From contig NZ_ANBM01000011.1 of the NCBI RefSeq assembly GCF_002100115.1, forward strand, positions 1-64,000: a stretch of 64,000 nt of DNA, given 5' to 3'. The notes beneath the pieces are model-generated. The model saw only the letters and a list, made by a program, of their open reading frames with translations. It ran no database searches and was not told the origin of the DNA. Numbering within the stretch: the first letter of the stretch is position 1; every line of letters begins with the position of its first letter. A program made the position numbers and the translations under genes. This document shows positions 27,336-37,353 of the stretch, one piece after another. Origin of the DNA: Anaerovibrio sp. JC8. GTDB lineage: Bacteria; Bacillota; Negativicutes; Selenomonadales; Selenomonadaceae.

Positions 27336-27983
27336 TCAACCATATTCTATAGCCCGAATTGCCTCTATAATCTTATATACTTCTGTACTTGGCTGAAAAT
27401 CTGCCGTATGAATTTTTCGACCACTATCAACACAATGTTTCTCGAGTCTTTTGGCGTTCTGAATAGCTTGTTCCTGATAATCAGCAAGCAATTCATATAA
27501 GTCTTCACGACCTTTAGAATACTCAGGAATTATTTTTTCAACCGCCTCCAATAATTCTTCATTAGAGTTGTATTGCTTTGTTGAATAAATATAATGACAA
27601 ATAAACCATTCTTCAAAACATGGGGCAGAAACAATGACTTCCATACCATACTCTTTATTCGTGGCAGCTATCTTATCTGCAACCATAATCTGCTTATTTT
27701 TTTGGGCATTTACATCTGAATCAACGAGACAAAATGCCCGATCACCCGAATCTCTTTTTATATCTTTTTCTTCGCACTCTTGTAATAATTCCTCAACCAT
27801 TTTTACCGGATCTGTTGCATTCCCAGGAGCAAAATGAATTTTTACTTTATCACTGTTAAATTTTCTAAAGTAGTTTGTTTCAGTTTTATTCTTTCCTTCT
27901 GCAGAAATAACAATAATGCGCTTTCTTATCCGGCTATTTGAATTCCTCTTCTTCGACTCGTATCCAGTTTTTCTTACCCCCAT
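27336..27983 (-). CDS. RloB/AbiLii-like TOPRIM-type protein
   Basis: A 215-residue protein with the RloB pattern: VISAEGKNKTETNYFRKF near residue 25-42 gives the catalytic-type Glu, and AFCLVDSDVN near 85-95 the D-x-D of a TOPRIM-like fold. In paired systems (RloA-RloB, AbiL, and by analogy PARIS) this component is the nuclease effector released or triggered by an AAA15 ATPase. It starts inside the last codons of the ATPase gene (10-bp overlap), so the two are translationally coupled. Defence role is inferred from family and context. Confidence 0.75.
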   Translation of the reverse strand: MGVRKTGYESKKRNSNSRIRKRIIVISAEGKNKTETNYFRKFNSDKVKIHFAPGNATDPVKMVEELLQECEEKDIKRDSGDRAFCLVDSDVNAQKNKQIMVADKIAATNKEYGMEVIVSAPCFEEWFICHYIYSTKQYNSNEELLEAVEKIIPEYSKGREDLYELLADYQEQAIQNAKRLEKHCVDSGRKIHTADFQPSTEVYKIIEAIRAIEYG

Positions 27984-29254
27984 AAGCTACCCCCTGCGCC
28001 AACTTCAGGAATGGAACCATATCTGCCGAGTAAATACGCCTTGCGTATATCTTCTCTAGTCCTTGGAGAAAATTCATCAAGCGAATAAAGATCAGAGATG
28101 CCGGTCTGCTGATTCTTTTCAACAAAATAAATCTGATCTCTTCGCATTTCATTGAGGTCAAGAAGCGACATTGTATGAGAGGAAATAATCAGTTGAGCAT
28201 TCCTTTTATTAATATTAGGATTATTGAATAGTCCCACTACATATACAAGTAACATTGGATGAAGACTTGTATCAAATTCATCTATGCACACCGTTTCACC
28301 GGTATCAAAAGCCCGTTTAATAATTGGAGCCATAAAAAAAAGATTTCTTGTTCCTTGAGATTCACTGTGCATCCCCAATGAATATTTTTCATTGTGTCCG
28401 TTATCATCGCCTATTGTATGAAATGCTGTAATCTCATACACCTTACCCTGAATTTGCTGATCTGTACCCACTTCCTGCTTTGGAGCAAATTGACCTGGAT
28501 GTACAAAAGGTATTTCTTTGCTTGTGAAATTATAGTCGGAAATGTTTATATCCGCCTCTTTTAAAAGGTTGATTGTAAAATTACGCAAAGATTTATCTTC
28601 ATCATTTTCATAGAGATTTCCCGCAAGATTAAGAGCTTTCTCTTCATATCGTGGTTCATAAGTATTAATCCCTTGCATGAACCACAGCATTGGTTCTTTG
28701 GTTTCTTCCGCGTTCCAACTAGATGCGGTTGCAAGGAAAAGTTTATTATCTGTATTTCTTTCCGTAAGAGGCTTTAGCTTTTTTTGTATCGCATGATCCG
28801 TAAATCTATATGGTTCTTTTTCAGATTCATCACGCACAAATATAGTAGCCGGTTTAGATGAATTATAAACATAAAGATACTCCGTGCAAATTTTTTTTGT
28901 AGTCGCAGAAAATCCATAAACATATTTTTTTTCATTAACCGTAAAAACAAATTCAAAGGAAGTAGGCTTCGAACCCGATTCCTTGTCAAATAAAAATGGG
29001 GTAATTTGCGTTAAGGGCTCACCAATCTGTCTAAAATTTGAAAACCTTACCATTAAAATGGCTGCTGTTAGAGCAAAAAACAAATTGCTTTTGCCAGCTG
29101 CATTTGCACCAAATATAGCAGCAACCTTTAATACTCTATCTTTCTTCATTTGAACGATATTATCTAAAAGGTTTTTGTCAGCTGATGCTTCCATAGAGAG
29201 TACAGCCTTATTTTTAAAAGACCTAAAATTCTCCACTGAAAATTGTTGCAACAT
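27974..29254 (-). CDS. AAA15 ABC-type ATPase (AbiLi/RloA-like)
   Basis: A 426-residue ATPase of the COG1106/OLD-like group without a long coiled coil. Walker A is FGANAAGKSNLFFAL (about 49-63), the signature-like SESQGTRNLF lies near 302, and Walker B with its D-loop is TVCIDEFDTSLHP near 325. FSVENFRSFKNKAVLSM at the N-terminus is typical. It is the sensor/ATPase half of an AbiL-type abortive infection pair with the following RloB-like gene. GGGGG precedes the ATG and a good promoter lies upstream. AT-rich, unlike the core genes. Confidence 0.8.
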   Translation of the reverse strand: MLQQFSVENFRSFKNKAVLSMEASADKNLLDNIVQMKKDRVLKVAAIFGANAAGKSNLFFALTAAILMVRFSNFRQIGEPLTQITPFLFDKESGSKPTSFEFVFTVNEKKYVYGFSATTKKICTEYLYVYNSSKPATIFVRDESEKEPYRFTDHAIQKKLKPLTERNTDNKLFLATASSWNAEETKEPMLWFMQGINTYEPRYEEKALNLAGNLYENDEDKSLRNFTINLLKEADINISDYNFTSKEIPFVHPGQFAPKQEVGTDQQIQGKVYEITAFHTIGDDNGHNEKYSLGMHSESQGTRNLFFMAPIIKRAFDTGETVCIDEFDTSLHPMLLVYVVGLFNNPNINKRNAQLIISSHTMSLLDLNEMRRDQIYFVEKNQQTGISDLYSLDEFSPRTREDIRKAYLLGRYGSIPEVGAGGSLWG

Positions 29255-29907: not shown

Positions 29908-29949
29908 GAAAAAGACTGCCCACACCTGATGTGCAGCAGTCTTTTTTTA
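29908..29949. terminator. Terminator after the six-gene island operon
   Basis: AAAAAGACTGC ... GCAGTCTTTTTTT hairpin with inner CACA/TGTG pairing; T-tracts on both strands. On the minus strand it lies 110 bp after the 30062-30517 gene. Confidence 0.8.
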
Positions 29950-30061: not shown

Positions 30062-30517
30062 TTATTCAGATAGAGCATATCCATCACAAATATCATAATA
30101 AACTGTATCAATCTCATTAATAATATCATAAAGGAACCGTTCTTCATCGAAGTTATCAATATCACCTATCATCTCGTCAAGAATCGTCAACCCGCCATTT
30201 ACATACTCTTCGACAATCTTACGCACCACATCATCATCATTAATCTGATTCTCTTTTCCTTCAGCTCTCAATTCGTTCAAAGCAACAGAATAAATGTAGG
30301 ACATTTCCTTAGAATTCTCTATTGCACTAAAACGAAGATAACTATTTGACTTCTCAGAGGAAACTTTCTTATTTCTGCTCACACCTAAGCTCATGGCAAA
30401 AACATAGATATCAGAATTACTACCATCTCCTAGATGAAGAATATTTTTCTTTTCAATTTTTCCTCTGATAACTTTTTCTTTTAAACTATCATCACAATTA
30501 AATGTCTTATCTGCCAT
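30062..30517 (-). CDS. 151-residue acidic protein, last gene of the island operon
   Basis: Predicted mostly helical and acidic, with a basic N-terminal third (EKVIRGKIEKKN) followed by SNSDIYVFAMSLGVSRNKK. The latter pattern vaguely recalls the small proteins associated with Dnd (phosphorothioate) systems, but I cannot make a firm match. The gene overlaps the SMC-like ATPase gene by 11 bp with GAGG inside it, so the two are coupled and the products probably form a complex. No signal or membrane segments. Confidence 0.65.
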   Translation of the reverse strand: MADKTFNCDDSLKEKVIRGKIEKKNILHLGDGSNSDIYVFAMSLGVSRNKKVSSEKSNSYLRFSAIENSKEMSYIYSVALNELRAEGKENQINDDDVVRKIVEEYVNGGLTILDEMIGDIDNFDEERFLYDIINEIDTVYYDICDGYALSE

Positions 30518-32504
30518 AGCTATTTACCTCTGTCACATTGTCCTTCATTTTAAGTTCTGTATAGCTGGAAATCACATTTTTATTAAAGACCTCACTAATT
30601 TCTTCAGAAAACTCTGAGGGGGTAAACGCAAGTACTATCTGCTTGTTCTCGCTTACATCTAGTAATACATCTGCAAAATTTTTCCTGTTAACATCCGATA
30701 CCCTACCCACGGGAGTATCAATGAATAGAAAGCTGTTATAACCAGATACCTTGTGAATAGCAAGCGTAAATGCTAGTGCAAGTAACTCCCTTTCTGAGGC
30801 AGAGCAACTGTTTAAACAAGATTCACCAGTATACTTATGATACAACTTGATATTATAACTTTCATCAAGCTCCACATTACCATAAGTGTCCTCTTTCCAG
30901 ATAAGTCTGTCAAAGACAGATGTTGTAACACTAGCTATATTAGTCCTTACCTCTCCGGCTAGTTCATTTCTGATTTCATCAACCATGCACTTCGCCTCTT
31001 TGGTAAAATTATAATATCTACTTAACTGCTCATTCGTATTATTTACCTCAACAGCATCTTCGTATTCCTTTTTTAGCCTATTCTCCTTATCCTTAAGCTG
31101 ATCTAATTGTTCATAATATTTGCCTTTCTTTTCCTGATTCTTAAATTTTAGTTCTTCATTTTTCCTTTTCTGCTCGATAGCAGTCGATACATCATCAATA
31201 GACTCTCTGCCATAAGCACCAATAGATTTCCAAATCTGTTTAGCTTTTTCTTCTATGTCCTCAATGGCCTTGACTTTAGAATTTATTTCATCAAGTTTGT
31301 TCTGCTTTTCAGACTCGTATCCATTAATATCTATAGCCCTCATAACATCTTTAGCAATATCGCTGATTTTCTGTGCAGAAATATTATCATTTATTTTAAA
31401 AAGCAACTCTTTAAGCTTATCAATTTTAGAACTATCAAGATGGCCCCCACAAAGCCTACATTCACAAGACCTGATACTTTCCTGTATCTCGTCAGAACTA
31501 AAATCCGGATAGAGGCTACCACTCTTTTTACGCTCGGCAATATAATCAGAAGTAGCTTTATTAGTCTTATACATAAGGATCAGAACAAAATATTTCTTGA
31601 CTATATCAATCAGCTGATTTTCAAGCTTGCCTTTATCTTCTGCTAAATTCTCCAATAATCTTTTATATTCCTCATATTGTTTATTTTTATCTGCAAGGAA
31701 TTCTTTACCATTAATCTTGTTATCACATTCAACAATCATTTTTTCGGCTTCACTTATCTGGGTTTCAATATCAGATATTTCTTTTTCCTTGTTCTCCCGG
31801 TCAGTTTTGACTTTCTCATATTCCTCTTCCTTCATCTTCAATTGAGGGGAATTAGCATTAATTTTATCGCTATATTCTTTCATGACCTTACCAAGATGAT
31901 CACTTACATTGTTGATAATATTAATCTGAGCAATTACAGAAACACTATCCTTGATGTTTTTCCTCTTTACAATACTAAAATATGTAAGAAGTTGTTCACC
32001 GTCAAAATAGAAATACTCCCTTATACTTTTCGGCAGAAATCTCTCTATTATTTCGGCAATTTCATTCTGTGCTGGAAAAGAAGTGTTTCCACTCTCATCA
32101 GTCATTTTACATGTAAGTTTATCTCTTCCTATCTGGCTCCTACTGGATGTCTTATATTTATGTTCTCTAGTAATCTCATAGGTAGTCCCTAAATCTTCCA
32201 ACTTGACAGTAACATAAACACAAAATTCAGTCTGTCCTGTTTCTTCTGCATCTGCCACAGCCTCAATATTATATAAAGGAAGCCGATCAACAGAATCCTG
32301 ATCATCCCCCCTTTTATCAATTATACCGGAAACATGGGGTTCATCTCCATAAAGGCACCAATTGATAGCATTAAGAAAATTAGTCTTTCCCACACCATTA
32401 GAGGCAACTATTACATACATATCACATGAATTAGTCTTAGGAAATTCAAGACAAAGATTTTTATATTGCCGATAATTATGACATAAAATTGAAATCAGAC
32501 GCAT
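30507..32504 (-). CDS. SMC/Rad50-like ATPase (DndD-like)
   Basis: A 665-residue ABC-type ATPase split by a long coiled coil. Head: Walker A SNGVGKTNFLNAINW (about 34-48) and FYFDGEQL near 165. Coiled coil from about 200 to 540 with a central Cys hook CECRLCGG (near 345). C-terminal head: signature SASERELLALAF and Walker B FLFIDTPVGRVSD near 605. The DTPVGR D-loop region resembles DndD. Such ATPases sense or load on DNA in defence systems. It starts at TAATG overlapping the stop of the 56-residue gene; AAGGTG is at good spacing. Confidence 0.85.
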   Translation of the reverse strand: MRLISILCHNYRQYKNLCLEFPKTNSCDMYVIVASNGVGKTNFLNAINWCLYGDEPHVSGIIDKRGDDQDSVDRLPLYNIEAVADAEETGQTEFCVYVTVKLEDLGTTYEITREHKYKTSSRSQIGRDKLTCKMTDESGNTSFPAQNEIAEIIERFLPKSIREYFYFDGEQLLTYFSIVKRKNIKDSVSVIAQINIINNVSDHLGKVMKEYSDKINANSPQLKMKEEEYEKVKTDRENKEKEISDIETQISEAEKMIVECDNKINGKEFLADKNKQYEEYKRLLENLAEDKGKLENQLIDIVKKYFVLILMYKTNKATSDYIAERKKSGSLYPDFSSDEIQESIRSCECRLCGGHLDSSKIDKLKELLFKINDNISAQKISDIAKDVMRAIDINGYESEKQNKLDEINSKVKAIEDIEEKAKQIWKSIGAYGRESIDDVSTAIEQKRKNEELKFKNQEKKGKYYEQLDQLKDKENRLKKEYEDAVEVNNTNEQLSRYYNFTKEAKCMVDEIRNELAGEVRTNIASVTTSVFDRLIWKEDTYGNVELDESYNIKLYHKYTGESCLNSCSASERELLALAFTLAIHKVSGYNSFLFIDTPVGRVSDVNRKNFADVLLDVSENKQIVLAFTPSEFSEEISEVFNKNVISSYTELKMKDNVTEVNSYGR

Positions 32505-32674
32505 TAGTTTTTCACCTTCTCATCTACAGCTTTTTCAATAAGCTTCTTATATTGCTTGGAAAACTGTACACTTTCATTTTCATGACTGATAATAGCATAT
32601 AAAAAATCTTTTAATATTATATTACTACCAGCCTTTTCTTCAATTTTATCATTTATTGCAGGATTGGATATCAT
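32504..32674 (-). CDS. 56-residue protein wedged between helicase and SMC genes
   Basis: The frame starts with ATG at 32674 inside an ATGA overlap with the helicase stop and ends at a TAATG overlap with the ATPase start. It encodes a small soluble helical protein (ISNPAINDKIEEKAGSNIIL at the start, a lysine-rich end). The exact stop/start overlaps at both ends and the absence of any other reading make it a real gene. It is too short for usual gene callers. Function unknown; perhaps an adaptor between the two large enzymes. Confidence 0.72.
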   Translation of the reverse strand: MISNPAINDKIEEKAGSNIILKDFLYAIISHENESVQFSKQYKKLIEKAVDEKVKN

Positions 32675-34809
32675 CTCAAAACCTCCGCTCTTATTTTCTG
32701 TAAAAGATTATATATGCTTACATTATTTAAAGCATTTTCAGACAAGTCCTCAGCCCTTAAAATTTCCTTGTCAAAAATACGAGTCTCACATTCAATCAAT
32801 CTTTCGTCCTTAAAAACCGATAAATCCGGTTTAAGTATCATGTCATAAATATTAGCCTGCCTCTTACCTGGCGCTTGTCTTATTATTCGGCCAATCCGTT
32901 GGACATATTCTCTTGGATTAGTACTGCTTGCCATAATAATAGCTGTATCTGCAGAAGGAATATCAATACCCTCGTCAAGACACTTAATTGCCACTAAAAC
33001 CTGATACTTTCTTTCTTTGAACAACTTTATGATATAATCGCGTTCTGACAATCCGTCATACTTGTCCATAGGAATAGTGCCTTGCTCTTGTGTAAATTTT
33101 GTGCAGGCAATATGATGTTTACCTAATAATCTTATTACTTCATCAATTTGTGCATCCGAAACAAATATAATAGTATCCGTGATTTCGTTGCCAAGTTCAC
33201 CTAAAATATTTTCAAGTTTCTCATATTTGTTCTCGGCATTTTTTTCAATATTGGCACGCTGAAACCTTAACATCTGTAAAAAGTCATCATTATCCGAAGC
33301 ATACCTTCCAATCTTAATTATTTTATCCGTGAGTTTCTTATACTCTTGCAACTCCGTTTCTGTAAGAGAGATGAAGCAAGGATGATAATAATAATTTACC
33401 AGAAATGTCCTACCAGTAACTGGGTTGATATTATTTAACGCATCTCTTATGGTAAATTCATAAGAATCATTGCCGAAATATTCAAATATAAGGTTGCTTC
33501 CAGCATCATCAAACCATCTTTGAGGTGTAGCGCTAAGTCCTAAACGATAGTCATACCCATCTATAAGCCCGTTACGGGTCTTCGCTGCCCCCATACCATG
33601 CACCTCGTCTCCAATAAAGAATTTTTTTATTCTCGTAAATTTTGAAGATTCAATAACACCCAAAAACTTTGTAGAAGAACATACTTGATGGGTAGTATAT
33701 ATAATAATATTTTTATACAGACCTACAGACAACTTTAACAGCTCTTTTTGCAATGTGTTGGGCCAGCCATGCACATTTCCATTAATAACTAAAGATTTAT
33801 CAACAGGAATATCCAATTTGTCAATATCAGCCTTCCACTGACCAGATAGTGTTACCTGAGGACAAGCTACCACTATAAGAGGTTTTCTGTTATCCAAAAG
33901 AACTATTTTTATACAACCTATAGCTGTCCTTGTTTTTCCCGTTCCAGTAGCTAACTGCAATAAAAGCTTCCTACCGTTATTCTTCCACTTTTCAACGGCT
34001 TCTTCCTGATAATAAAATAACTCCAGTTTTTCTTTAATCTTAGGTGTGACAACAGGAATAGTCGATTTAGGCGGATACTTCTTGTTTGCAATATATGACG
34101 GCTCAAAATCTTTGCTTTCTTCAATCAATTTCTCTTTAATTGCAACCGGCAAGTCCTTAACTATAACATCTTTACGCTCTTTTTTCCAAAAACTATTAAA
34201 TTTACGAACATCGCCCGTAATCCAAGCGCCATCACCTTTCCAGCTTCTAAAAACCTTAAATTCCTCGGTATTATCAAGCCAACCACTTGCAGATTCATTA
34301 TTTGAACCGCTAAAACTTATAATATTCCCAGCCTGATCATAAAAAATACCAACTTTTTGGTGCATTATACCCAGTTCGTTTACTTCATACTCTGAACAAA
34401 GCATGTTATTTTTACAAACAATAGCAATTTTTATTTCCAATAAGCCATTTGCTATCATCCAACCTAAAGCTTTAATATGGTCTTTTTCAAATTTATCCTC
34501 AATTTCGTCATAAGATTTTATGAAATCACGATAAATAACATTATCAAGATCATCAAGAGAATCATTTAATACCTTAATGTCCTTGCCTTGCAGCCTAGGA
34601 CATGTTACAAGCCGCATTTTACCACCATTAAGTATAAACCGCTCTATCCCCTTTGCAGCAACAGCTAATGCCCCCGAAGAGAAAAAACCCGCAATCCTAT
34701 CATACTGATTAGCTTTGGACAAAACAGGAATATAGAAATCCCATAAGATGTTATCTACTCCCGAATCATAGGATGGATTTAAATTTAGCTCACTGAAATC
34801 ATTGATCAT
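32671..34809 (-). CDS. PLD-nuclease domain fused to an SF2 helicase
   Basis: A 712-residue protein. The N-terminal 220 residues form a phospholipase-D-type (HKD) domain with HQKVGIFYD and SGSNNESASGW. From about 265 it is a superfamily 2 helicase: motif I ATGTGKTRTA, motif II GDEVHG, motif III GLSATP, motif VI QRIGRIIRQ. The DUF3427 tail of larger relatives is absent. Such fusions occur in restriction-like defence loci and probably translocate along and cleave DNA. Start 34809 follows GGAAG and lies 4 bp after the upstream stop. Confidence 0.88.
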   Translation of the reverse strand: MINDFSELNLNPSYDSGVDNILWDFYIPVLSKANQYDRIAGFFSSGALAVAAKGIERFILNGGKMRLVTCPRLQGKDIKVLNDSLDDLDNVIYRDFIKSYDEIEDKFEKDHIKALGWMIANGLLEIKIAIVCKNNMLCSEYEVNELGIMHQKVGIFYDQAGNIISFSGSNNESASGWLDNTEEFKVFRSWKGDGAWITGDVRKFNSFWKKERKDVIVKDLPVAIKEKLIEESKDFEPSYIANKKYPPKSTIPVVTPKIKEKLELFYYQEEAVEKWKNNGRKLLLQLATGTGKTRTAIGCIKIVLLDNRKPLIVVACPQVTLSGQWKADIDKLDIPVDKSLVINGNVHGWPNTLQKELLKLSVGLYKNIIIYTTHQVCSSTKFLGVIESSKFTRIKKFFIGDEVHGMGAAKTRNGLIDGYDYRLGLSATPQRWFDDAGSNLIFEYFGNDSYEFTIRDALNNINPVTGRTFLVNYYYHPCFISLTETELQEYKKLTDKIIKIGRYASDNDDFLQMLRFQRANIEKNAENKYEKLENILGELGNEITDTIIFVSDAQIDEVIRLLGKHHIACTKFTQEQGTIPMDKYDGLSERDYIIKLFKERKYQVLVAIKCLDEGIDIPSADTAIIMASSTNPREYVQRIGRIIRQAPGKRQANIYDMILKPDLSVFKDERLIECETRIFDKEILRAEDLSENALNNVSIYNLLQKIRAEVLR

Positions 34810-34813
34810 AAAA

Positions 34814-35503
34814 TCACTTCCAAGCAATGTTTTTCAAATAATTCCCTTTATAGTTAGACTTTTCGATAAGCATAAGAATCATCCTCTTGACATTTGGCAG
34901 TCTCCGCTGCGTAGTACTCTCAGATAAACACCTCATCATTATATCTGTAACATTAATGTGTTTTTGTTTTCCGTAATTCATAACCAATCTTACGATAGGC
35001 ACCCTAAGAAAAAGCTTAGTCTTAATATCAGCCTTTGTTCTATCAGGCAATTTCATAAATATCTGCCCCAAATGAGTAACAGCTTTATCGCCAGAAGACG
35101 TTACTAACCCTAAATGTGCAGTTAACTTATAATGGTTTTCTCCATATTTTGACCATGAAGTATGATTTCCATCCTTATTAAAATAATACCCAATATCAAC
35201 ATAAGTTCCACCAGGATTAGCATCGACAATATTAATAATACCTTCAATGCTATCTAATGAACTATACTGAGGAACATTGCTTGATTCTATTTTTTCCTCA
35301 TACGTAGTATCGAGATTTAGAATACTTACAATTTCATCAACAGAACTACTCTCCAATAATTCTACAAGCATTGTGTCAGCTAGTATTCTATCATTCTCAG
35401 AAAAATTTTTTCCGGCTTTCTCAGGATAATTGAAAAAAAAAGCTTTAAAAACATCATCCTTAGAATAGCAACCGCTTAAAAGAATATTAATATAATCATC
35501 CAT
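34814..35503 (-). CDS. Winged-helix-like protein of the island operon
   Basis: A 229-residue soluble protein. The centre (about 85-150: GGTYVDIGYYF, then KYGENHYKLTAHLGLVTSSG and VTHLGQIFMKLP) reads like a winged-helix DNA-binding domain; the C-terminal part has basic helices with RRLPNVKRMILMLIE. I do not recognise a named family. ATG 35503 follows GAGGTG. The genes before and after are 18 and 4 bp away, so it is a core member of the operon, perhaps giving DNA specificity to the helicase. Confidence 0.7.
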   Translation of the reverse strand: MDDYINILLSGCYSKDDVFKAFFFNYPEKAGKNFSENDRILADTMLVELLESSSVDEIVSILNLDTTYEEKIESSNVPQYSSLDSIEGIINIVDANPGGTYVDIGYYFNKDGNHTSWSKYGENHYKLTAHLGLVTSSGDKAVTHLGQIFMKLPDRTKADIKTKLFLRVPIVRLVMNYGKQKHINVTDIMMRCLSESTTQRRLPNVKRMILMLIEKSNYKGNYLKNIAWK

Positions 35504-35521
35504 GATATACACCTCTGCGCT

Positions 35522-36769
35522 TCATTTAGATGGCGGAATAAATCTTACATCAAAATATTTAGCAGCTATCTCAGGATATTCTTTTTCAAAATCCGTTAAT
35601 GCTTTCATCGAAGAGCATAAAGTACCTTTTGTTTTATGTAATGCCTGATTAGCATTGCAAAAATCACGAAAACTCATTTTCTTTATGATACTTGGTTGGT
35701 TGCACCATCGGGCAATGGTAACATACATGCTACGATACTTGGAATTTTTCCACGGAGTATCATTTTTACTACGATATCTCATAATATAAGGAAGGCAGCC
35801 ATATCTAAGTAATAAGTCAATACGAATAAATGCATTTTCTATATCTTTTGCATCAGTACTTTCAAAGCCAACCAGTACATAAAACATAATCCCCTTACGC
35901 TTGCTTCGATACTTACTAATACGTTTCAACTGACGATGAATCAATTCATAATCACTAACATTATCAAAGGCAAAAGTAAAATCGCCATCATATTTCGAAC
36001 TAAAAAGCAACTCACATTGTTCGTCATCAAGGACGCGTTCATCCATACCTTGCTTAAATTTAAACGGTTTGCCAGTTGCTCTTAACTTTTCTAGCAAAGG
36101 TTTATATCCCCTATGGTACCCAAAGAAGTTATCATCAAGCAGGCATATTTTCTTGCGAGATTCATCATAAAATTCCTCTAATTTACTATGTTCAAATACA
36201 CGATTATACTTTTGATTCACACAAAATGGGCATTTCCTAAAACACCCTCTTGTTAAGAACCCAATACTATAATCTGTGTATTCTTTAAACTGAACCCTAA
36301 ATCGGTCCTCGTTAAAACTAACCTTAACATTTTCAACTAATTCAGGGTCTAATCCATCTTTTACTGCCTGCTCCTTTAATGATCTTGTTTTGATTTCTGC
36401 GGCCTTGATGGCAGATTCTTTGGCATCTTTAACTTTTAGCTCAATCCACTTATCATAAAGATGATAGTCTGGCATATGATGTTCAATTTCATCTGGAAGA
36501 TTCGGCGCTTTATCAAACCAAAAACCCGTACCACCGATTTCAACGTTATCATATTCTTTAACATTATCCAACGTAATAGGACAGTATGTATCAGTAAAAA
36601 CCTTAGCAATATAAACCCTTTCATACTTGGACAGATTATCATAATCCGTCTTCAACTCAACTTCTTTTCCTTGTTCTTTCCAATAAGCAGAAAGCTTCAT
36701 ACAGACAAGATTAGGAAATCTGTGATTAGTCCTACCAAGTAAATCAGCATCGATAATAGCGATTGACAT
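35522..36769 (-). CDS. Radical SAM enzyme, first gene of the island operon
   Basis: A 415-residue protein. The [4Fe-4S]/SAM motif is GCFRKCPFC (C-x3-C-x2-C, about residue 181-189). The N-terminal 160 residues (AIIDADLLGRTNHRFPNLVCM...) resemble the Rossmann-type domain of B12-dependent or MTTase-like radical SAM proteins but lack a clear cobalamin motif. Similar proteins occur on phages and mobile elements. It could modify a nucleic acid, a protein or a nucleotide; being first in a helicase/SMC operon suggests DNA or signal-nucleotide chemistry, which is inference. GAGGTG precedes the start. Confidence 0.8.
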   Translation of the reverse strand: MSIAIIDADLLGRTNHRFPNLVCMKLSAYWKEQGKEVELKTDYDNLSKYERVYIAKVFTDTYCPITLDNVKEYDNVEIGGTGFWFDKAPNLPDEIEHHMPDYHLYDKWIELKVKDAKESAIKAAEIKTRSLKEQAVKDGLDPELVENVKVSFNEDRFRVQFKEYTDYSIGFLTRGCFRKCPFCVNQKYNRVFEHSKLEEFYDESRKKICLLDDNFFGYHRGYKPLLEKLRATGKPFKFKQGMDERVLDDEQCELLFSSKYDGDFTFAFDNVSDYELIHRQLKRISKYRSKRKGIMFYVLVGFESTDAKDIENAFIRIDLLLRYGCLPYIMRYRSKNDTPWKNSKYRSMYVTIARWCNQPSIIKKMSFRDFCNANQALHKTKGTLCSSMKALTDFEKEYPEIAAKYFDVRFIPPSK

Positions 36770-37055: not shown

Positions 37056-37353
37056 TTATGACATATCAGCAACTATCTTTTTAAATTCTTCTACTGTGAT
37101 ACCGGCTTCCTCAGCCGCTTCCTCTGCAGTGAGTTTGGATTTTTTAAATAAGGACAAAACCGTTTCTATTCTACCCTCTCGTCTTCCTTCTTTTCTACCC
37201 TCGATTCTTCCTTCTTTTCTGCCTTCTATTCTTCCAGCATTTTTGCCCTGTTCTTCAATTTCCATCAAGGTTTGATTATACGTCATATACAACGCCCTCT
37301 TTCCATCATCATTAGGCTTATTATTAATATAGTCTACTATACTGGAGAGCTCT
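37056..37353 (-). pseudogene. 5'-truncated Rpn-family nuclease/transposase remnant
   Basis: The frame opens without a start right after a TGA near 37353 and reads ELSSIVDYINNKPNDDGKRA, then EEQGKNAGRIEGRKEGRIEG repeats and a short HTH-like AEEAAEEAGITVEEFKK tail: the C-terminus of Rpn PD-(D/E)XK recombination-promoting nucleases. The nuclease domain is missing. An internal ATG (37286, AGAGGG upstream) might still yield 76 residues. It marks the right boundary of the AT-rich island, only about 20 bp from the CoA-disulfide reductase stop codon. Confidence 0.7.

Follow-up and report, generated by a model that had tools for sequence, protein, structure and literature searches.

A radical SAM enzyme and a winged-helix protein in front of a PbeABCD-like cassette: a candidate DNA-marking pair in an Anaerovibrio defence-type operon

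The PbeABCD cassette, whose name stands for phosphorothioate-blocked DNA exclusion, was described together with DndCDEA in Haloterrigena jeotgali, where a phosphorothioate-modified virus escapes it (PMC6459918). Cleavage of viral DNA was not seen in that study, whereas PMC10853773 argues for it. PbeB is a small protein of 66 residues and PbeD a DndE cognate of 152 residues (PMC6459918, PMC10853773), and PbeB evolves fast (PMC10853773). Xiong et al. (PMC6459918) found 320 of 553 PbeAC to lack dnd genes and 165 to lack any modification component nearby, and left undecided whether such PbeAC are inactive or use another mark. The CxC ABC-ATPase-DndE systems, named for a CxC zinc hook at the apex of the coiled coil, combine an ABC ATPase, a DndE cognate, an HKD-superfamily 2 (SF2) protein and a small protein, and some of them have cytosine methylases as partner (PMC10853773). 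Here we analyse an operon of Anaerovibrio sp. JC8 in which these four components stand with a class B-like radical S-adenosylmethionine (SAM) enzyme (rSAM) and a winged-helix (wH) protein. It lies at 30062-36769 of the window, that is, the 64,000 nt from positions 1 to 64,000 of contig NZ_ANBM01000011.1. The effector cassette is the known part and the front pair, rSAM and wH, the new one. We put the probability at roughly two in three that this operon encodes a defence which tells self from non-self DNA in the manner of restriction-modification, with rSAM-wH marking self DNA and PbeABCD attacking.

Operon layout and effector cassette

All six open reading frames (ORFs) of the operon lie on the minus strand (Table 1), at the positions given by an earlier sequence-only reading of this DNA, whose spacing also holds when ATG starts are used: gaps of 18 and 4 bp, an ATGA overlap, a TAATG overlap and an 11-bp overlap. 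The AT-rich composition that it had reported is likewise found, with a GC content of 0.34-0.35 at 30-36 kb compared to 0.45-0.51 across most of the window. Its view of a single coupled defence-type operon is borne out by the close spacing and by the same gene set in other families and phyla (see below), but its remark that it knew of no named system with this exact set is not supported, since PbeABCD, a published cassette, accounts for four of the six genes.

PADLOC assigned the nuclease-helicase to PbeA with an E value of 2.3e-217 and the ATPase to PbeC with 1.6e-83, with DndD lower in the list (5.6e-46). The gene had been called an SMC ATPase; it is an ATPase, but one better described by PADLOC as DndD-like ABC ATPase than as SMC. 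DISARM, Lamassu and ABC-three-component systems, to which the locus had been likened, were rejected because PbeA and PbeC are the best PADLOC matches by wide margins. A Pfam scan of the operon saw the SF2 helicase and the ABC ATPase, and PbeA also matches TIGR04095 (dnd_restrict_1, NCBIfam; E 5e-107, below the family cut-off). The acidic protein matches TIGR04062 (dnd_assoc_4, NCBIfam) with E 1.6e-9, at 38 bits against a cut-off of 74, and has homologues in the same place in two other loci, L028 and L029. The 56-residue protein, for which Pfam, PADLOC and NCBIfam gave no family match, is 47% identical to its homologue in L028 and 41% to that in L029; it sits between A and C, so the order is A-B-C-D as in PbeABCD, with B assigned by position. 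Judged by sequence, these four genes are a PbeA, PbeB-like, PbeC and PbeD-like effector cassette, in which the assignments of PbeA and PbeC are firm and that of PbeD is weaker.

The cassette shares its order with that of Haloterrigena jeotgali, and its B and D proteins have 56 and 151 residues compared to 66 and 152 there (PMC6459918), but here rSAM and wH replace the modification genes. Pairing with phosphorothioation genes is part of the Pbe definition, and the host genome (2.68 Mb in 33 contigs, completeness 99.99) gave no DndC and no DUF4007/SspB match in a genome-wide search for these two. The PbeC hook may differ as well from that of Haloterrigena jeotgali and of the CxC systems: it contains CxxC both here and across the rSAM clade. 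The hook of the window holds both motifs; CxxC occurs in 25 of 26 rSAM-locus rows (the 26th, L044, being a fragment), whereas CxC alone occurs in 16 of 19 other rows, the exceptions being L243 (CxxC), L244 (CACC) and L247 (no motif), the last of which is perhaps a DndD.

Table 1 Positions of the operon genes, of features around them and of selected arrangements in other loci (positions without a locus prefix are those of the window).
Feature	Position	Strand	Description
Radical SAM enzyme (rSAM)	35522..36769	-	415 aa, class B-like: Rossmann/B12-binding-like N-terminal domain and radical SAM barrel
wH protein	34814..35503 (ATG 35503; alternative GTG 35512)	-	~230 aa (232 aa)
PbeA	32671..34809 (ATG 34809; alternative TTG 34827)	-	HKD/PLD nuclease domain fused to SF2 helicase
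Small protein in PbeB place	32504..32674	-	56 aa, position between PbeA and PbeC
PbeC	30507..32504	-	DndD-like ABC ATPase, hook motif CECRLC
PbeD-like protein	30062..30517	-	DndE cognate / dnd_assoc_4, acidic, 151 aa
Possible intrinsic terminator	29920..29936	-	Downstream of PbeD, consensus scan alone
AbiL-like candidate defence module	27336-29254	-	AAA_21 ATPase and RloB-like pair, downstream of operon
78-aa ORF	37056-37292	-	Possible remnant
Second radical SAM family beside Pbe	L237:13486-15543, L240:3352-4836, L241:4276-6309, L243:5300-6556
rSAM and PLD-wH pair	L066:10001-12368
wH with sigma-70 domains	L107:15136-17475
rSAM-ParB-SNF2-wH layout	L041:9986-15734

The radical SAM enzyme and the winged-helix protein

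Neither protein of the front pair matched anything in PADLOC, and PDB sequence searches with each gave no match at the limits used. Although the Pfam Radical_SAM match of rSAM is sub-threshold (E 0.17), its radical SAM identity stands because of its predicted fold and of the CX3CX2C motif (C176/C180/C183), present in 97 of 97 selected rows. These rows comprise the window, L028, L029 and 94 of 108 candidates (from the 80 genome loci plus 28 viral loci hand-picked out of 80), of which 11 were excluded for want of a clean full ORF and 3 were removed by hand. The protein also matches phrog_9298, radical SAM (E 7e-49).

The predicted rSAM structure (predicted local distance difference test, pLDDT, 96.5) finds MiaB by Foldseek (E 1e-8, probability 1.00), as well as AprD4 and RimO, and its VIA Z values are highest for MgmA (17.0), followed by AprD4 (16.2), MiaB (15.5), RimO (14.8), CysS (14.1), TsrM (12.6) and OxsB (12.2). 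It thus shares a two-domain fold and the CX3CX2C motif with class B-like enzymes (MgmA, AprD4, MiaB/RimO, CysS, TsrM). The N-terminal domain may bind cobalamin, as its modelled fold matches TsrM, OxsB and MgmA, yet AprD4 and MiaB are matched too; a relative in L243 has a Pfam B12-binding domain (E 1e-12). Methylthiotransferases such as MiaB and RimO have three conserved N-terminal cysteines for a second cluster. In rSAM these are missing, a single N-terminal column having cysteine in more than 30% of the rows (56 of 97), and we rejected this assignment, as we did a cytokine-receptor-like one (Pfam E 0.0088, below its cut-off).

The sequence-only reading had let this enzyme either write a modification or make a signal. 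Radical SAM viperins are known antiviral enzymes of bacteria, and a viperin-like rSAM would convert a nucleotide into a small antiviral compound or signal, with Pbe as an independent neighbour. The best structural matches, however, carry an N-terminal Rossmann-type domain, and the fusion to a winged-helix domain, the lack of overlap with phosphorothioation modules and the PbeA clade (see below) also stand against a signal, to which we give scarcely any credence; the comparison favours a writer.

For wH, the model (pLDDT 93.5) has no significant Foldseek match (FokI at E 1.1), and the VIA ranking is headed by FokI (Z 6.8 and 6.3), followed by PaqCI (5.0), MarR (4.5), PaqCI again (4.5) and other winged helices. 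The best FokI alignment (Z 6.8, root-mean-square deviation 4.0, 151 residues) is first in the list but below 8, and falls within FokI residues 7-276, which we take to be its DNA-recognition part. This modelled likeness to the type II enzymes FokI and PaqCI, the nearest fold matches, is suggestive only. A match to the ATP synthase AC39 subunit (Pfam E 0.0025, below its cut-off) was rejected.

Gene fusions also bear on the role of wH. In seven loci (L064, L075, L078, L082, L094, L116 and L170) it forms the C-terminal part of the rSAM ORF, and in L066 an ORF that joins a PLD domain to wH lies next to rSAM in convergent orientation. wH goes with the proposed writer in some loci and with a nuclease in another, as a target-recognition domain would, and we propose that it is the DNA target-recognition subunit of rSAM. 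Unlike in the FokI and PaqCI systems, the writer would then be a radical SAM enzyme instead of the usual DNA methylase.

Further contexts of wH were seen. The rSAM and PLD-wH genes of L066 form a minimal, two-gene restriction-modification-like pair; relatives of the PLD-wH protein were not found in plasmids or viral contigs, nor did it have a PDB sequence match at the limits used. In genome G186, the C terminus of a 429-residue protein matches wH (HHalign 88%, E 3e-6 for the pair); the protein is flanked by two ORFs with a DPPY motif, methylase-like by motif, and its PDB sequence search returned a designed protein alone (E 0.004). At the end of a ParB/SNF2 layout in L107, wH precedes sigma-70 region 2 and region 4 domains within a single ORF.

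Distribution and partners of the pair

A contig scan found 152 rSAM relatives, of which the best 80 were kept; all were selected via rSAM, and several loci end with their contig (5 to 21 kb). Among these best 80, 24 have PbeC, 15 have ParB genes, 2 have GmrSD and wH, 4 others have wH (L057, L066, L082, L116) and 35 have none. The order rSAM-(wH)-PbeA-PbeC is kept in 22 of the 24 Pbe loci, the exceptions being L113 (rSAM convergent) and L106 (Pbe reversed). wH was matched in 23 and forms one ORF with rSAM in 4. PbeA and PbeC are separated by a small ORF in 21, and a PbeD-size ORF follows PbeC in 22, the contig ending there in the remaining two. By record title, the loci come from Bacillota, Actinomycetota (Collinsella, Enorma), Bacteroidota, Verrucomicrobiota, Lentisphaerae, Kiritimatiellia, Spirochaetales and a Nanoarchaeia bin, many of them being metagenome bins in which contamination is possible. 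Carriers available in culture include Mitsuokella jalaludinii DSM 13811 (L113), Enorma massiliensis phI (L083) and Collinsella ihumii GD8 (L101).

Genome G133, from another family, has the identical six-gene set in identical order. In G224, from the family of the host, rSAM is convergent after PbeD and the other five genes are in order; by eye, the six are flanked by a phosphorylase-like gene at one end and, at the other, by a transposase together with a transporter-like gene, and the Pbe cassette is identical to that of the Mitsuokella jalaludinii locus L113. Co-occurrence of the full set in unrelated genomes, a check that the sequence-only reading had put forward, is thus observed. If the pair had come to lie beside a solitary PbeABCD by coincidence, within a defence island, the AbiL-like pair downstream of the operon would fit, as would L106, where a different Pbe adjoins an rSAM-wH pair. 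The conserved order across several phyla, the close coupling in the window, the fusions and a Mitsuokella cluster that holds just these six genes make such a coincidence barely believable, and because the set recurs in other families and phyla with this order we take the arrangement to be more than chance.

Quick trees, with Shimodaira-Hasegawa-like approximate likelihood ratio test (SH-aLRT) support alone, place 25 of 26 rSAM-linked PbeA in one clade (46 rows, SH-aLRT 99). The PbeA of L243, which stands beside another radical SAM protein, adjoins this clade with support of 81, and ten Ssp-linked PbeA rows group elsewhere, together with one row of no recognised partner. In the rSAM tree (101 rows), the effector labels Pbe, ParB and GmrSD must have changed at least 12 times, and the distinction of defence from phage or none at least 10 times; when well-supported branches alone are counted, Pbe still requires 8 changes and ParB 6.

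To see Pbe outside a selection via rSAM, we used a phylum sample of 398 genomes. rSAM matched in 12. Three of these, G000, G133 and G224, are set off by E values <1e-60 and frames of 400-416 aa; in the remaining nine the match is weaker (best 1.5e-24) and the frame has 291-376 aa. The wH profile matched in 4 genomes, namely these three and, at a weak E value of 1.3e-6, G186. There are 26 genomes with PbeA, and they include all three with strong wH matches (chance 0.00025). The module beside PbeA in these 26 is Ssp-like in 11, DndC in 3 (within ~11 kb), rSAM-wH in 3, another radical SAM protein in 4 and none recognised in 5, of which one is on a short contig. Thus, a radical SAM gene stands beside Pbe in 7 and a phosphorothioation module in 14, with both in 0 (hypergeometric 0.0012, relatedness not corrected).

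That 11 of 26 PbeA loci (within L226-L246) have Ssp-like instead of Dnd genes adjoining Pbe is an observation of its own: DUF4007- and DUF6079-type clusters occur in 11 of 11, a PAPS-reductase cluster in 9 and an aminotransferase-V cluster in 7. The SspABCD systems, with SspE or SspFGH, write phosphorothioate, whereas at the 24 rSAM-Pbe loci BLAST with Ssp and Dnd queries revealed no genes for it: neither SspD nor DndC was matched, the matches being PbeC through DndD alone. G133 and G224 have no DndC and no DUF4007 in their genomes; weak SspD-like matches fell in loci without wH (L068, L071, L110, L117) and in viral loci. Neighbour tallies by Pfam, PADLOC and PHROGs give the 25 commonest families, so that singletons may be hidden. 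Neither PAPS reductase nor DUF4007 is among the 25 commonest Pfam families of the 127 neighbour proteins of the 24 loci, in which PADLOC saw one type II nuclease. As a control, the neighbours of Pbe loci that lack this rSAM (78 of 180, hand-picked for size) include DUF4007 (9), PAPS reductase (7), GmrSD_N (6) and Radical_SAM (2).

The four other radical SAM proteins beside Pbe (Table 1) form one cluster with CX3CX2C and are distant homologues of the window rSAM (HHalign 97 and 98%, two compared); the wH profile has no match among the ORFs of L226-L248 (23 loci). By eye, the gene that follows in L237 and L241 resembles a GHKL-type ATPase, and HATPase_c_3 occurs in 2 members of the control tally. 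The phylum sample also contains shorter rSAM homologues (~300 aa); their 10 loci gave no match to the effector genes searched for, and one of them (L033) has phage-type and methylase-like genes.

rSAM-wH also occurs with other effectors. In the ParB layout, as in L041, rSAM is followed by a ParB_N protein, a 136-residue protein with a PD-ExK-like pattern read by eye, an SNF2 helicase, a second ParB-like protein and wH; 14 like loci exist, some cut or incomplete, and wH was matched in 11 of the 15 (L085 and L108, without a match, are at contig ends). This rSAM-ParB-SNF2-wH operon is apparently undescribed and restriction-like. In L048 and L054, rSAM-wH stands with a GmrSD_N protein; SspE is a nuclease of this GmrSD type. 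These sets bear on the question of whether rSAM modifies a protein instead of DNA, be it a phage protein or one from the cassette, such as PbeB or PbeD, with wH as a protein-binding adaptor and the modification as an activation switch. MgmA, the top structural match, is a protein glutamine methylase, and PbeB, small and fast-evolving, is a plausible peptide substrate, but PbeC was not found in the ParB/SNF2, GmrSD and PLD-wH sets that rSAM also accompanies, wH is also fused to a nuclease domain and phage-type loci place rSAM beside DNA methylases; we therefore consider a protein substrate improbable.

The survey of phage-type loci took the two genes that flank rSAM to the left and to the right at 60 loci (35 genome, 25 viral) lacking both wH and the Pbe/ParB sets, the genome loci being called phage-type from their gene neighbours taken together. 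Of 211 proteins, 150 were scanned, from 33 genome and 9 viral loci; counts are slightly inflated, as L069 and L161 share one set of neighbours and the pairs L062/L122 and L089/L092 nearly duplicate each other. Pfam found N6_N4 methylase (10), C5 methylase (9), PAPS reductase (7), ParB_N (7), small terminase (6) and SAM synthetase (4), and PHROGs found DNA methyltransferase (11), ParB-like (10) and PAPS reductase (7). The rSAM gene overlaps a DNA methyltransferase gene in an annotated Oscillospiraceae phage and a ParB-like gene in a Methanomassiliicoccales virus. From these neighbours and overlaps, rSAM often lies within apparent phage DNA-modification clusters. Spore photoproduct lyase is a radical SAM enzyme that acts directly on DNA, and rSAM-wH might likewise be an effector or eraser that damages phage DNA or strips its marks, with Pbe as a second layer; its place within modification-gene clusters, and the several unrelated nuclease sets that accompany it, as expected for a writer, make this very improbable.

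Around the operon itself, the AAA_21 ATPase and RloB-like genes downstream are an AbiL-like candidate defence module. On the other side, the 78-residue ORF resembles the C terminus of the Rpn nuclease/transposase family below cut-off, has a run of GR-EGR-type repeats and is possibly a remnant at the upstream border of the operon. The terminator consensus scan gave 4 sites in the region compared to 2.9 in shuffles. A site without the operon could not be demonstrated in 5 genus relatives, which share with the window just the genes to the right of the operon.

A candidate DNA-marking module

Our best reading is that rSAM-wH is an exchangeable, sequence-guided DNA-marking module in place of phosphorothioation or methylation. 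Its observed basis is gene content and order, the absence of overlap with phosphorothioation modules, the fusions, the predicted folds and the one PbeA clade. Steered by wH, rSAM would put a mark on a specific host DNA sequence, using SAM, a [4Fe-4S] cluster and perhaps cobalamin to add, for example, a carbon-bound methyl or other group. The mark would protect, which is the natural reading of the escape of phosphorothioate-modified virus from PbeABCD. By analogy with PMC6459918, the PbeC-PbeD pair would scan the DNA and license the PbeA nuclease-helicase to cut where it is unmarked, PbeABCD being, by homology, the attacking half. The pair would be portable, being found elsewhere with unrelated nucleases, and phages may keep the writer without the attacking half, as with orphan DNA methylases.

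Several points weigh against this. We infer the action of rSAM on DNA, and the nearest structures have protein (MgmA), an aminoglycoside (AprD4) or RNA (MiaB) as substrate. By modelling, the FokI match of wH is weak (Z 6.8; Foldseek E 1.1), and wH was not matched in the Pbe locus L091 or, with sequence available, in the ParB-type loci L088 (where rSAM is last) and L103. The PbeA of L106 falls on a long branch outside the rSAM clade, and monophyly of the full 26 is rejected (AU p 0.014); a 700-residue gene with sigma/RpoA-type Pfam matches adjoins it, and because this kind of gene also occurs at L239 and L244, the rSAM-wH of L106 may be an island neighbour. The 127 neighbours at rSAM-Pbe loci include generic methyltransferase domains in 2 (Pfam) and one type II methylase (PADLOC), and phage-type loci already have modification from methylases. 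As for the other radical SAM family, L237, L240 and L241 share a related ~1130-aa gene, a possible true partner, and the genome of L243 (G274) has a DUF4007 gene elsewhere.

Beyond this operon we incline, with a little more belief than doubt, towards a new restriction-modification class, with an rSAM-written mark, an exchangeable recognition subunit, at least four unrelated effectors (PbeABCD, ParB/SNF2 with a small nuclease-like protein, GmrSD and PLD-wH), phage counter-defence and a marking chemistry new to defence as far as searched. The literature searched, which covered few subscription papers and no bioRxiv preprints, so that an earlier mention is possible, describes neither a radical SAM partner of Pbe nor a radical SAM/ParB/SNF2 system; in the main text of PMC10853773, 'radical SAM' occurs twice, both for DndC.

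The rSAM-wH pair is a concrete candidate for the missing mark that guards 'solitary' PbeABCD. If DNA is its substrate, a radical SAM-made DNA mark would enter defence biology. If true, a phage gene now annotated merely as 'radical SAM domain protein' would gain a purpose, and cultured strains would be indicated in which a new nucleoside or backbone change may be found.

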